A DNA stretch of 64,000 nucleotides from the NCBI GenBank assembly GCA_944323655.1, contig CALUTL010000002.1, forward strand, positions 62,001 through 126,000, given 5' to 3'. Each line of letters opens with the position of its first letter. Within the stretch, counting starts at the first letter, position 1. Source of the DNA: Candidatus Gastranaerophilales bacterium. GTDB lineage: Bacteria > Cyanobacteriota > Vampirovibrionia > Gastranaerophilales > Gastranaerophilaceae. Below the pieces are notes generated by a model. It was not told the DNA's origin, ran no database searches, and saw only the letters and a list, made by a program, of their open reading frames with translations. This document shows positions 15,836 through 63,023 of the stretch, one piece after another. The translations under genes were made by a program, and so were the position numbers.

Positions 15836-16114
15836 CTACGCTAATATAGACAATCTGCCTTTTTCAATATCTTGAGCCTGATGCTTTTGCGCCATCTTTT
15901 CCTGCAAACTTGCAATTTTGTACAGAAGACTGTTGGATACAAGATCAAGACTTAGTTTTTTGTCCATTTCATGCAGCATTGTAAGGTCGTTTTCTCCCCC
16001 AAAAGTGTGATGCGATAACGCATTGTTCATTTGATTATATGTCTGCATAACTCCGAATGCAGCATTGTTCATGCTTTGTACAGCGTTAAATCTGACTATT
16101 GATGAAACTAACAT
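15836..16114 (-). CDS. Small unknown protein, lineage-specific
   Basis: 92 aa, mostly helical, no known family: VQSMNNAAFGVMQTYNQMNNALSHH then DLTMLHEMDKKLSLDLVSNSLLYKIASLQEKMAQKHQAQDIEKG. The Met/Gln/Asn-rich helical style resembles the 174-aa protein at 62.5 kb. The 5' leader holds an 8-bp stem-loop just upstream of the GAGGGTAA ribosome-binding region. Codon use and the ribosome-binding site support it as real. Confidence 0.6.
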   Translation of the reverse strand: MLVSSIVRFNAVQSMNNAAFGVMQTYNQMNNALSHHTFGGENDLTMLHEMDKKLSLDLVSNSLLYKIASLQEKMAQKHQAQDIEKGRLSILA

Positions 16115-16130
16115 TTACCCTCACTAACCT

Positions 16131-16155
16131 GATTTTGGAAAGACCACCCAAAATC
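16131..16155 (-). promoter_or_regulatory. Stem-loop in 5' leader of the 92-aa gene
   Basis: GATTTTGG (16131-16138) and CCAAAATC (16148-16155) form an 8-bp stem with a 9-base loop, ending 16 bases before the start codon at 16114 on the minus strand. It could affect translation or mRNA stability. No T-run follows, so it is not a terminator. Confidence 0.4.
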
Positions 16156-16271
16156 AAATTCCTTACTTTCTTATTCTAAAACATAAGTTTTATTTTTTCA
16201 AGTACATTTTTGTATAATTTTTATATTAACTTTTGTAACAATTTAAGCAAGTTGTGAAATTAGATAAAATC

Positions 16272-16289
16272 TATATACTTTATATATAT
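16272..16289 (+). promoter_or_regulatory. Shared AT element, copy 1 (TATATACTTTATATATAT)
   Basis: An 18-base element identical, on the opposite strand, to 35340-35357 upstream of the 311-aa gene, and within one base of 63006-63023 upstream of the 174-aa gene. In those cases it sits about 25 bases before a start codon and reads towards the gene. Here it reads rightwards into a stretch that has no ORF but ends in a terminator. I infer a promoter or operator element. Confidence 0.45.
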
Positions 16290-16457
16290 GTAACAAATAA
16301 CGAAAGAGAGCAGCTTAAATAAACACGAGCGATATTAAGAGACATATAAGTAAGAGAGATAAAGAAAAGAGATTATCCGTTAAATAAGACAAAAGAGAGA
16401 TGTTTATTCCTTCCTTCCTAAAAAAAAGTATAGCCCCTTAAAAGGGGCTTTTTCTTT
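16290..16457 (+). ncRNA. Candidate small RNA, unknown family
   Basis: This is the only gap over 300 bases in the window (16115-16479). It contains no ORF of note. About 140 bases of purine-rich sequence with repeated GAGAG/AGAGAT words (for example AGTAAGAGAGATAAAG and AAAAGAGAGATG) plus a pyrimidine patch TTCCTTCCTTCC lie between the shared AT element (16272-16289) and a strong hairpin with T-run (16432-16457). The layout is promoter-like element, spacer, terminator. The alternating purine and pyrimidine blocks could pair internally (GAGAG with CTTCC-type) or with Shine-Dalgarno-like targets. It does not look like 6S RNA, tmRNA, RNase P or SRP RNA. Confidence 0.35.
16432..16457. terminator. 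Bidirectional intrinsic terminator
   Basis: AGCCCC(TT)...(AA)GGGGCT stem followed by TTTTTCTTTT on the plus strand and, read leftwards, by ATAC plus eight T. It ends pyk on the minus strand and the putative small RNA on the plus strand. Confidence 0.85.
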
Positions 16458-16479
16458 TGTAAAATTTTTTATTAATTAT

Positions 16480-17919
16480 TTAGCCGGCAGAGCCGATTTT
16501 ATGAATTTTAATAAAGTTTGTCCCGCCAATTAAGATATCAGGAAGCGAGCCTGTAAATATTATCTTATCGCCGTTATTAAGTCCGATTCTTTTTGTCATA
16601 AATTTATCTGCCAATTGAAGCTCTTTACGGTCAATTTTACCTTCATAGCCAACAACCACCGGGAAAATTCCTCTATAAAGCTTTAGAGTTCTGCATATAT
16701 TAATTTTAGGGCAGCAGGCGTAGATGGGGACACTCAATCTGCCTTCAGATAAGAACTGTGCCGTAAAACCGCTTCCGGTAAGTGCTACTACCGCTTTTAT
16801 ATCCATTTTCTTCGACATATCTGCTATTGACATTCCGATTGCCATTGCCTGATTGTCTTTTTCTTCCTCTATCATTTTGCGGGGGAATTTGTTCTTACGC
16901 ATAAACGGAGAGTTTTCAACCTCATCCGAAATCTTTTTCATCATTTCTACTGCCTTTACAGGATAAGCTCCTGCTGCGGTTTCGCCTGATAGCATTATTG
17001 CATCCGTTCCGTCAAGAATTGCGTTTGCTACGTCACTGGTTTCAGCCCTTGTCGGAATCGGGTTTTCTATCATACTTTCAAGCATTTGCGTTGCGACTAT
17101 TACAACTTTGCGCTTTATATTCGCTTTTCTTATAATTGTCTTCTGTACAATCGGTACTTTTTCAGTCGAAATTTCTATTCCTAAGTCGCCTCTTGCGACC
17201 ATAATTCCGTCCGAAACTTCAATTATTTTATCTATGTTCTCGACAGCTTGAGGCTTTTCTATCTTAGAAATTATTTTTATATCCTCGTTGTGATGGCTCT
17301 TTAATAACTCTCTTAACTGAATTACATCATCTGCATTTCTCACAAATGAAAGACCGAGATAATCAATCTCATTTTCTGCAGCGAATTTGACGAATTTTAA
17401 ATCTCTTTCCGTTAAAACATCTATGCTGCCGGTTGAGCCGGGAATGTTTATACCTTTTCTTTGTTTCAAAAGCCCGTCAGTTAATGCTTTTGCATAAATT
17501 ATTTCATTTTCAACCTTCTGAACCTCAAATTGAATTTTGCCGTCATCTATAAGAATCATCTCACCTTCTTTTACGTCTGACGCAATCCCTTTGTAATCAA
17601 CTGGTATAATGTCGTCTGTCATTTCGTTTTGGTGTCTGAATTTTAAGGTTTCGCCCTTCTTTAGTTCAATAGGTTTTTCAAGGCAGCCTATTCTTATTTT
17701 CGGACCTTGAAGATCCAGAAGTACAGGTATTATTGTTTCTTCTTCCTTCTCAATTTCTCTTATGTAATCAAGATTACGCTTGTGAATTTCAACGTCTTCG
17801 TGCGACGAATTAAGTCTGAACATCGTTACGCCTGCTTTATATAGTGTGCGTATCATTTCTTTTGTGTTTGAAGCAGGGCCTAGTGTTGCCACAATTTTTG
17901 TCATGTTAAAGTTTTCCAT
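16480..17919 (-). CDS. pyk: Pyruvate kinase
   Basis: Converts phosphoenolpyruvate and ADP to pyruvate and ATP, the last step of glycolysis. 479 aa. MTKIVATLGPASNT at the N-terminus; the active-site signature IISKIEKPQAVENID with the catalytic Lys; MVARGDLGIEI; and QMLESMIENPIPTRAETSDVANAILDGTDAIMLSGETAAG. The C-terminal regulatory domain is present, but there is no extra PEP-utiliser domain as found in some Firmicutes. The start chosen has AGAGGAAAATT upstream. It is monocistronic, with the bidirectional terminator at 16432-16457. Confidence 0.98.
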   Translation of the reverse strand: MENFNMTKIVATLGPASNTKEMIRTLYKAGVTMFRLNSSHEDVEIHKRNLDYIREIEKEEETIIPVLLDLQGPKIRIGCLEKPIELKKGETLKFRHQNEMTDDIIPVDYKGIASDVKEGEMILIDDGKIQFEVQKVENEIIYAKALTDGLLKQRKGINIPGSTGSIDVLTERDLKFVKFAAENEIDYLGLSFVRNADDVIQLRELLKSHHNEDIKIISKIEKPQAVENIDKIIEVSDGIMVARGDLGIEISTEKVPIVQKTIIRKANIKRKVVIVATQMLESMIENPIPTRAETSDVANAILDGTDAIMLSGETAAGAYPVKAVEMMKKISDEVENSPFMRKNKFPRKMIEEEKDNQAMAIGMSIADMSKKMDIKAVVALTGSGFTAQFLSEGRLSVPIYACCPKINICRTLKLYRGIFPVVVGYEGKIDRKELQLADKFMTKRIGLNNGDKIIFTGSLPDILIGGTNFIKIHKIGSAG

Positions 17920-29704: not shown

Positions 29705-31021
29705 ATGGATACTATTTTGTCTTGCAAAAATTTGGTTATGTCAAACTTAATTGAAAAAGCATTTTGCTTTTCGGTTATTCTAGGGGTGGTATGTCTTCAG
29801 GCAATGGTTTTGCCGCAAAAAATTATGGCTGACGATGTAATCGTTGCTCATAATGCTGTACAGACAATTGATGTTAAAAATTTGAAGGAAAAAATTCTCA
29901 TTGAACTTTCTCCAGAAGTCAGAAAGAAAAAATTTGATGAATACATTAAAGAAAAATACCCAAAAGCCATAATTACAGATGTTCAAGACGGCATCAAACA
30001 TATTAAACTTACAAATTACTACAACGGCAGACCTGTAAAAATTAATATTATTGAAGCTGACTTGAAAATAGCTGATAATATAGAATTAACACCGGTTTTA
30101 TCGACATCAGACAAGCTTCAAAGCAGGCGGACAATTACTACAATCGCCAAATCAAAAAATGCTATTGCAGCAGTTAACGGAACGTATTTTAAATTCCAAT
30201 CAGGAGTTCCGCTCGGCACATTGATGATTAATGAAAAAGTTTACACAGGCCCTGTTTATGACAGAGTTGCATTAGGAATTTTTGATAACGGATTTGATGT
30301 TGCACGAGTGCAGCTTAACGCAAACATCAAAGGAAGCGGAGTCAAAGTTAAAGTAGACAACATAAACCAACCCAGAATGCTTTCAACACACGTACTTGTA
30401 TATACTCCGGAATGGGGTAAAACTTCTCCCTATGCTCCGAAGTATGGCATGAGTTTGAGGGTAGCGGACGGCAAAATTACAAAAGCCTCCGCTAACCCGC
30501 TCGATATCCCGCAAAACGGCTATGTAATCTCCGGCCCTAAAAAGCTTCTTCAACCGCTTTTAAAAGATAAAGACGTAGATTTGACTATTAAAACAATTCC
30601 GGAGTGGAATAATGTTAAGCATATAATAAGCGGCGGCCCTTATCTTGTTAAAAACGGCGAAGTCTTTGTTGATATGACAGCCCAAAAACTCGGTGCAATA
30701 GGCGGCAGAAACCCCAGAACCGCTGTCGGCTACACATCTGATAATAACCTGATATTACTCACTGCGGACGGACGTGAGGGAAGTTCTATCGGAATGACAT
30801 TAATGGAGCTTGCAAGATTTATGCAATCCCTCGGCTGTATCGGCGCTATTAACCTCGATGGAGGCGGTTCTACCGTTATGTATGTCAACGGCTCTGTCGT
30901 TAATAAACCTCAAATGAAAGGCGGAATTCCGCTTTCTAACGCTCTGGTTTTATCAGTTAAAGAGCCTGATAACAATGAAAATGACACTGAAATTACACAA
31001 AAAGAAGAAAATAATTCTTAA
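29705..31021 (+). CDS. Exported phosphodiester glycosidase-domain (NAGPA) protein
   Basis: 438 aa from ATG 29705, which has GAGAGG 7 bases upstream; an in-frame GTG at 29639 would lie within the leader. N-terminal hydrophobic signal/anchor (KAFCFSVILGVVCLQAMVL). The C-terminal NAGPA (DUF2233-type) domain carries AIAAVNGTYFKFQSGVPLG, GGPYLVKNGEVF, GGRNPRTAVGYTSDNNL and the signature INLDGGGSTVMYVNG. Family members hydrolyse phosphodiester-linked sugars; bacterial ones are thought to act on envelope glycans. Likely periplasmic or at the cell surface. Confidence 0.88.
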   Translation: MDTILSCKNLVMSNLIEKAFCFSVILGVVCLQAMVLPQKIMADDVIVAHNAVQTIDVKNLKEKILIELSPEVRKKKFDEYIKEKYPKAIITDVQDGIKHIKLTNYYNGRPVKINIIEADLKIADNIELTPVLSTSDKLQSRRTITTIAKSKNAIAAVNGTYFKFQSGVPLGTLMINEKVYTGPVYDRVALGIFDNGFDVARVQLNANIKGSGVKVKVDNINQPRMLSTHVLVYTPEWGKTSPYAPKYGMSLRVADGKITKASANPLDIPQNGYVISGPKKLLQPLLKDKDVDLTIKTIPEWNNVKHIISGGPYLVKNGEVFVDMTAQKLGAIGGRNPRTAVGYTSDNNLILLTADGREGSSIGMTLMELARFMQSLGCIGAINLDGGGSTVMYVNGSVVNKPQMKGGIPLSNALVLSVKEPDNNENDTEITQKEENNS

Positions 31022-31072
31022 TTCTCATACCTTTTGTTCATATAAGTTACATTCTTACTCAATTAGCACCTT

Positions 31073-31104
31073 CCCTGCGCCAATACCCCGCAGGGATTTC
31101 TTTT
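31073..31104 (+). terminator. Intrinsic terminator after the glycosidase gene
   Basis: CCCTGCG (31073-31079) pairs with CGCAGGG (31089-31095), followed by ATTTCTTTT. Confidence 0.75.
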
Positions 31105-31106
31105 GA

Positions 31107-31511
31107 TTACTGCACATTCTGGTCAATTATATCTGAGATAATCGGAATCCTGCCATATAATCCCATAAAAGCTGTAATTGCTAAATAAAAAAGTAAAATA
31201 TAAATAACCGTTTGAATTATCGAATAACCAAAAATCATCGGCATATTAAATAACAATGCAATCTGTGCTGCAATTATGTTAATTATCGGAATTAAACTTA
31301 GGATATTTAATACAAATCCCAAAATTAAACACAATAATACATATCCGATTGAAATAAATATTGATTGAAATATATGAAACTGTAAGAACTTAGTTAAATT
31401 AGTACGTCTTATAAGACCGATTATAAGCCATATAAACCCGACTAATCCCATAGTTAAATAGCTTAAGCCAGCCACAATGCGCTCTATCATAAATGGTTTT
31501 TCATGATACAT
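31107..31511 (-). CDS. Tic20-like small membrane protein
   Basis: 134 aa with four hydrophobic segments. IERIVAGLSYLTMGLVGFIWLI, the aromatic signature FLQFHIFQSIFISIGYVLL and the C-terminal IIQTVIYILLFYLAITAFMGLYGRIPIISD fit the Tic20/Ycf60-like family of cyanobacteria and plastids; in plastids Tic20 is part of the inner-membrane protein translocon. The bacterial role is unknown. It starts 2 bases after the TPR gene stop, so the two are co-transcribed. The lineage signal agrees with a cyanobacterial relative. Confidence 0.72.
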   Translation of the reverse strand: MYHEKPFMIERIVAGLSYLTMGLVGFIWLIIGLIRRTNLTKFLQFHIFQSIFISIGYVLLCLILGFVLNILSLIPIINIIAAQIALLFNMPMIFGYSIIQTVIYILLFYLAITAFMGLYGRIPIISDIIDQNVQ

Positions 31512-35339: not shown

Positions 35340-35357
35340 ATATATATAAAGTATATA
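35340..35357 (-). promoter_or_regulatory. Shared AT element, copy 2
   Basis: On the minus strand this reads TATATACTTTATATATAT, identical over 18 bases to 16272-16289. It ends 25 bases before the 311-aa start codon, leaving room for a -10 box overlap, a short leader and the GGAG site. Confidence 0.5.
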
Positions 35358-63005: not shown

Positions 63006-63023
63006 AAATATATAAAGTATATA
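63006..63023 (-). promoter_or_regulatory. Shared AT element, copy 4
   Basis: Minus strand TATATACTTTATATATTT: 17 of 18 bases match the copies at 16272 and 35340. It ends 26 bases before the start codon of the 174-aa gene. Confidence 0.5.

Follow-up and report, generated by a model that had tools for sequence, protein, structure and literature searches.

The analysed window, a DNA stretch of 64,000 nucleotides (nt), corresponds to positions 62001-126000 of contig C2 in the genome G000. It contains a gap of 365 bases (16115-16479) between a minus-strand open reading frame (ORF) of 92 amino acids (15836-16114), for which no Pfam match was obtained, and pyk (16480-17919, minus strand), which encodes a pyruvate kinase with the Pfam domains PK and PK_C. 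The closest relatives of this pyk stem from bins named Candidatus Gastranaerophilales, placing the genome near that group. An earlier note on this DNA had proposed a small RNA gene in the gap, made up of an AT element, purine words, a CU patch and a terminator, and all of these parts are indeed present where it had placed them. The AT promoter element TATATACTTTATATATAT is located at 16272-16289 on the plus strand, represents a promoter type shared with other genes, and is identical in 13 of the 14 copies from the genus and shortened in the remaining one. Upstream of it lies a TTAACTTTTGTAAC box (16226-16239, plus strand), which recurs before this unit across the genus as well as before several of the genes sharing the promoter. 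Transcription probably starts just downstream of the AT element, and the resulting predicted small RNA, which will be referred to as RNA-A, would extend from ~16290 to 16457 on the plus strand. Its 5′ half carries the predicted main docking site for a second RNA described below, RNA-B, with whose core it forms the best predicted duplex (16314-16362, plus strand; CTTAAATAAACACGAGCGATATTAAGAGA with GAGAGAT beyond it), followed by the GATTATCCGTTAAATAA block and a second purine word (16371-16399, plus strand), which are conserved in the genus alignment and partially repeat the docking site. Besides further purine words, GAGAG is found at 16306, 16354 and 16395. The CU patch TTCCTTCCTTCCT (16407-16419, plus strand), a candidate seed, is exactly conserved in all 14 genus copies and is kept in a varied form in other genera of the family. 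The unit ends with an intrinsic terminator (16432-16457, plus strand) consisting of a hairpin at 16432-16449 with seven pairs, five of them G-C, and a T run to ~16457; the hairpin is terminator-like on the minus strand, too.

No ORF of at least 40 amino acids was detected on the plus strand within 16290-16457, and insertions and deletions of any size occur between the conserved blocks, which argues against a conserved ORF and for a non-coding unit. Beyond the terminator, the predicted fold is not exceptional (z = -0.03), thus structure adds no support. Several of the single parts were compared with chance. The AT element occurred five times in the window with up to three mismatches compared to 0.31 expected, two of the five overlapping each other. 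The CU patch was present once exactly and five times with up to two mismatches, a number that is scarcely exceptional (2.16 expected; 7 of 100 shuffles reached five). Three GAGAG words are unremarkable in so purine-rich a stretch, as 86 of 1,000 shuffles reached that number. Between 15300 and 17400, a simple promoter scan showed no excess (5 versus 7.2 expected), and a terminator scan did (7 versus 1.5 expected). It is the conservation in 14 of 14 genus genomes that places the RNA-A unit far above chance.

A DNA search yielded RNA-A matches in all 14 genomes of the genus, in each of which the full unit could be read out and both pyk and the 92-aa ORF adjoin it; conservation, for which the earlier note had proposed a scan, thus reaches well beyond the terminator. 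An alignment of the 14 genus copies and two near ones showed the promoter, ACGAG, GATATTAA, ATCCGTTAAATAA and the CU patch as conserved blocks separated by variable lengths. The covariance model matched 115 of the 192 genomes of the order in 21 of 45 genera, 114 of the matches falling in the same family and one weak match outside it (E = 8e-4). Using a diverged copy as query, a DNA search detected further copies in genera missed by the model, and several genomes possess two. These family counts are probably low, as searches over more than 40 genomes used stricter filters. The sequence of the terminator stem differs between genera with the hairpin and T run kept; a crude tally gave 75 tails with 40 different arm strings, including register variants and a few misfolds. 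Among 30 further family loci of ~1.1 to 2.9 kb each, pyk was present in nine and the 92-aa ORF in nine. Taken together, a real small RNA gene equipped with a promoter and a terminator of its own, recurring across this family of gut bacteria, is strongly supported at the sequence level. Two peculiarities were noticed among the copies. At one contig end (L022), RNA-A is preceded by the reverse complement of the RNA-B terminator, which may be a misassembly at a shared repeat. In the genus g27, three loci (L298 in G126, L366 in G110 and L368 in G127) contain RNA-A-like units of greater length, in which the same promoter is followed by GATATTAAGAGAG and the 3′ part differs.

The AT element was found 22 times in the genome with at most one mismatch, compared to a single match for the reversed pattern. 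At 19 of the 22 sites an ORF of at least 45 amino acids follows within 90 bases, two sites belong to RNA-A and RNA-B, and one leader (L383) could not be parsed. Within the window, a 311-aa ORF is preceded by an exact copy (35340-35357, minus strand) and a 174-aa ORF by a copy with one mismatch (63006-63023, minus strand), confirming the proposal of the earlier note that lineage-specific protein genes have this upstream element in common. The promoter type consists of a TTGTAAC box followed by GCAATT or TGAAATT and by TATACTTTATATATAT, and stands before short leaders of lineage-specific proteins.

A weak RNA-A match on the minus strand of its locus (G000:C15:31093-31119) revealed a second conserved unit. 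This predicted small RNA, RNA-B (G000:C15, ~30995-31149, plus strand), has its own promoter, AATACTTTATATAAATGTAAGGG, which resembles that of RNA-A, and its own terminator (GTTGCC..GGCAAC with T8). All 14 genus genomes contain it, their alignment showing an uninterrupted run of 40 invariant columns, and a model of its 3′ part matched 163 of the 192 genomes of the order in 28 of 45 genera, all matches listed being members of the family. The core is nearly invariant and the most conserved piece; in far genera it still reads ACUCUCUCUUAAUAUCCUCGUGUUUAUUUAAUG apart from minor differences, most of which lie close to the terminator. RNA-B carries CUCUCUC and UCCUCGUG motifs, and its fold alone is not exceptional (z = -0.78).

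Read in reverse complement, the RNA-B core largely corresponds to the purine half of RNA-A, with complementarity spanning up to ~37 nt. The predicted duplex between RNA-A and the core reaches -40.1 kcal/mol versus -16.4 ± 3.0 kcal/mol for dinucleotide shuffles of RNA-A, none of 200 reaching the observed value, and uses the purine half of RNA-A without the CU patch. Long complementarity thus links two distinct RNA genes, as expected for a small RNA and its sponge. For each of the 17 RNA-A copies belonging to the genus or close to it, the real value outperformed all 200 shuffles, one of them (L022, -51.9) being doubtful because its contig stops at this point and may have been joined wrongly. In the rest of the family, all 100 shuffles were outperformed by 40 of 54 pairs, and 46 had z below -2. 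The 14 pairs short of a full win derive from G027, G130, G062, G085, G112, G140, G141 and G184, and the rest are among the copies of G092, G116, G136, G172 (both) and G177. Eight of the 54 were weak (z above -2), including first or second RNA-A copies in g10, g18, g23, g30 and g32. The duplex tables leave out G049, G096, G101, G158 and G183, for which RNA-B was not fetched or the RNA-A transcript could not be parsed. The earlier note had suggested that the purine repeats or the CU patch could pair with ribosome-binding sites. Both the repeats and such sites are purine-rich, and the fitting partner of the repeats is the CUCUCUC-bearing RNA-B; their role as Shine-Dalgarno mimics or decoys was rejected, since they are complementary to RNA-B instead. 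For the CU patch, the mean pairing energy with the start regions of 52 genes, called crudely in the window, was -5.88 kcal/mol, compared to -6.41 kcal/mol for shuffled patches and -3.95 kcal/mol inside genes; the patch thus fits start regions no better than its shuffled versions and shows no specificity for them.

Where RNA-B varies near its 3′ end, RNA-A often shows a matching change. In G092, RNA-B reads UUUGAUG and one RNA-A copy CAUCAAGUAAACAC, which pairs at -18.5 with its own RNA-B versus -12.1 with the consensus form. Its genus-mate G116 combines UUUAAUG in RNA-B with CAUUAAAUAAACAC in RNA-A, G172 UUUUAUG with CAUAAAAUAA (twice in one RNA-A copy) and G155 UUAAAUG with CAUUUAAUAAACACG, and in the genus g29 inserted bases in RNA-B are accompanied by altered bases in RNA-A. 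Among 17 RNA-A copies from such variant lineages, the own RNA-B was better than the consensus in 12 (by as little as 0.1), equal in two and worse in three. A permutation test over 45 genomes, which ignores relatedness, gave a cognate advantage of -1.06 that none of 20,000 label permutations reached (permuted, 0.00 ± 0.17); in three g27 genomes the sign was inverted (+1.3 to +1.8). Even among 37 RNA-A copies from consensus lineages, 34 pair better with UUUGAUG than with the consensus form, and each of the other eight RNA-B forms is the weaker partner for 29 to 34 of them.

A third predicted small RNA, RNA-C (L126; G000:C12:18611-18739, minus strand), has the docking motif UUAAAUAAACACGAG in common with RNA-A and possesses its own terminator, the stem of which shows paired base changes. 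It is very strongly conserved in all 14 genus genomes and was detected in 153 of the order's 192 genomes (one match weak and outside the family), using a model built on 12 of the 14 genus copies, as two are cut by contig ends. Pairing of RNA-C with RNA-B was predicted at -20.4 versus about -10 for shuffles in the three copies tested of 12. In the genus g24, CACGAGAAUC(A/G)AG is found in 11 of the 12 C-type copies, opposite the CUUGAUAUCCUCGUG that RNA-B shows in seven g24 genomes, a suggestive case of a matching change. Eleven of the 12 g24 copies pair better with the g24 form of RNA-B, by 0.1 to 6.0 kcal/mol, and so do 11 of the 12 genus RNA-C copies; hence these energies do not discriminate. 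RNA-C is also complementary over ~30 nt to a stretch lying immediately downstream of the stop codon in a gene of the sigma-70 type, whose Pfam regions 1.2, 2 and 4 scored above and region 3 just below the cut-off. For this stretch in G000 (L146, C1 near 74780), G012 (L140) and G013 (L144), predicted energies were -35.6, -34.9 and -40.1 kcal/mol, with 2, 0 and 0 of 200 shuffles doing as well, respectively, the sigma 3′ end of G012 being paired with RNA-C of a different genus member. The 5′ leader of the sigma gene in G000 did not outperform shuffles in its predicted pairing with RNA-C (106 of 200 reached its value).

The RNA-B gene may have a further role. The sequence TTAATATCCTCGTGTTTA was found in nine IMG/VR contigs. 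Five of them (L394, L396, L397, L398 and L401) carry the 3′ half of RNA-B with an RNA-B-like terminator and lack the promoter and the CUCUCU part, and in all four of these five that were examined a Phage_integrase (tyrosine recombinase) gene is located 140 to 185 bases away. Three contigs (L395, L399 and L402) contain the CUCUCU part with a promoter-like element upstream, and L400 is seemingly unrelated. Among the loci scanned, 102 distinct cores possess the CUCUCU part and six do not, all six in viral contigs. A search of the viral contigs for RNA-A docking DNA with one exact pattern found none. With a phage copy lying beside an integrase gene, this pattern resembles a prophage attachment site within the 3′ half of RNA-B, which would be restored on insertion, as is likewise the case for tRNA genes. 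The attL and attR borders around a host prophage we infer only from contig ends at RNA-B. If true, this use of RNA-B would explain one class of prophage borders in these genomes.

We favour, with moderate confidence, an explanation in which RNA-A acts as a regulatory RNA rich in C and U and is under the control of RNA-B, its antisense sponge. The basis is the presence and conservation of all three genes, the complementarity between RNA-A and RNA-B and the matching changes in several lineages; from these we infer transcription, pairing in the cell, the direction of control, the mRNA targets and the fate of the duplex. RNA-A would be made as a stand-alone RNA from a promoter type common to lineage-specific protein genes and two other small RNA genes. 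The CU patch before the terminator would be its probable seed against purine-rich ribosome-binding sites, and the purine-rich 5′ half the docking site for RNA-B, which by pairing along up to ~37 nt would block or destabilise RNA-A. RNA-B would thereby act as a sponge (anti-sRNA) of RNA-A and, given the same docking motif, probably of RNA-C as well. The RNA chaperone family Hfq (PF17209) was not found in any of 21 genomes (13 of the genus and 8 from other families of the order), the same search yielding matches in 5 of 14 control genomes; pairing would consequently be spontaneous or helped by another protein. Spontaneous pairing would be possible, as RNA-A is nearly unstructured outside its terminator.

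The direction of control might be reversed, RNA-B being the active RNA that pairs via CUCUCUC and UCCUCGUG with GAGAG-type mRNA leaders, and RNA-A and RNA-C its decoys. Although we regard this as unlikely, it is the main rival, because conservation is highest in the RNA-B core and a few of the leaders are a good match for it. Among 18 leaders compared with the core, that of a 94-aa ORF (L388; G000:C8:63249, minus strand) outperformed all 200 shuffles, and three others (L386, L376 and L381) were reached by only 2 to 4 of 200. The L388-type leader of G002 (L103) fits RNA-B as well (4 of 200), making the L388-type mRNA a candidate target of RNA-B. However, 14 of the 18 leaders were unremarkable, including L380, which carries GAGAGUAU (64 of 200), and RNA-A retains its CU patch and terminator in G027, G130, G062 and G085 despite a poor docking site, features that a pure decoy would not need. 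The L388 leader itself is similar to the docking site of RNA-A and contains the ribosome-binding region.

Improbable in our opinion is a pairing that serves another purpose, the two RNAs being targets of one RNA-binding protein or forming a signal for RNase III without any regulatory seed. Such a reading would accommodate a CU patch that has no demonstrated target and a purine stretch that could bind a protein, but a protein alone leaves the ~37-nt complementarity that tracks RNA-B changes unexplained. Besides, Hfq was not found in the 21 genomes, and RNA-A contains no GGA in 16290-16404, hence no CsrA-type motif, and is in this respect no decoy of the CsrB/RsmZ type, which is characterised by repeated GGA motifs. 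Very improbable, finally, is an untranscribed locus, in which promoter-like DNA is conserved and the hairpin is the reverse terminator of pyk or due to chance. The hairpin is terminator-like in that orientation and no Rfam match supports an RNA; nevertheless, throughout the family the promoter is followed in the same succession by the docking site, the CU patch and the plus-strand terminator with T run, and the unit persists without pyk in the fetched stretch at 21 of the 30 family loci.

Building on the sponge reading, one may envisage a family-wide circuit operating without Hfq, a possible but rather doubtful extension. RNA-B would be the hub antagonising CU-rich RNAs (RNA-A, RNA-C and lineage copies) and some lineage-specific mRNAs, mostly under one promoter type, and the sigma mRNA, with a B-like stretch complementary to RNA-C in its 3′ end, would act as a second sponge. 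Prophages would enter the hub gene, lysogeny exchanging its 3′ half for the phage copy. If real, these units would represent a regulatory RNA network in common, hardly studied gut bacteria, and small RNA pairing kept across dozens of genera without detected Hfq. As exact sequences are given, stool metatranscriptomes could test this directly. In one open-access library, judged by titles and the starts of abstracts, no paper on small RNAs in Melainabacteria, Gastranaerophilales, Vampirovibrio or Vampirovibrionia was found.

By sequence, RNA-A has the attributes of a trans-encoded small RNA, i.e., its own promoter and intrinsic terminator, a short unit and no conserved reading frame. Searches against Rfam 15 at gathering and permissive thresholds returned only sub-threshold hits for RNA-A, the best centred on the 3′ end and terminator, and at the RNA-B and RNA-C loci nothing except a tRNA beside RNA-B. 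Known systems offer functional parallels. The anti-sRNAs of pathogenic E. coli are reported to be phage genes found bound to Hfq (PMC4104026). They resemble RNA-B in the antisense control of a small RNA, which for RNA-B is predicted, and in the link to phages, whereas RNA-B is a family-wide host gene and seemingly a phage landing site, in genomes in which no Hfq was found. RsaI of Staphylococcus aureus interacts with several C-rich small RNAs, as described in the RosA study, and combines G-rich regions with a C-rich region of its own for mRNA targets, compared to CUCUCUC and UCCUCGUG in RNA-B (PMC8216469). RosA of Bacillus subtilis is, according to the same study, a stand-alone sponge of RoxS and FsrA, the G-rich regions of which pair with C-rich regions of the RNAs it controls (PMC8216469). 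RNA-B is likewise a stand-alone RNA that would pair with at least two small RNAs bearing C-rich regions. Unlike RosA, which places G-rich sponge regions on a C-rich seed, RNA-B is predicted to pair with the purine half of RNA-A and not with its CU patch, and no shared sequence family is claimed. By its logic, RosA appears to be the closest known system, and RNA-A and RNA-B would work like a sponge pair of this kind without being filed in the RosA family.
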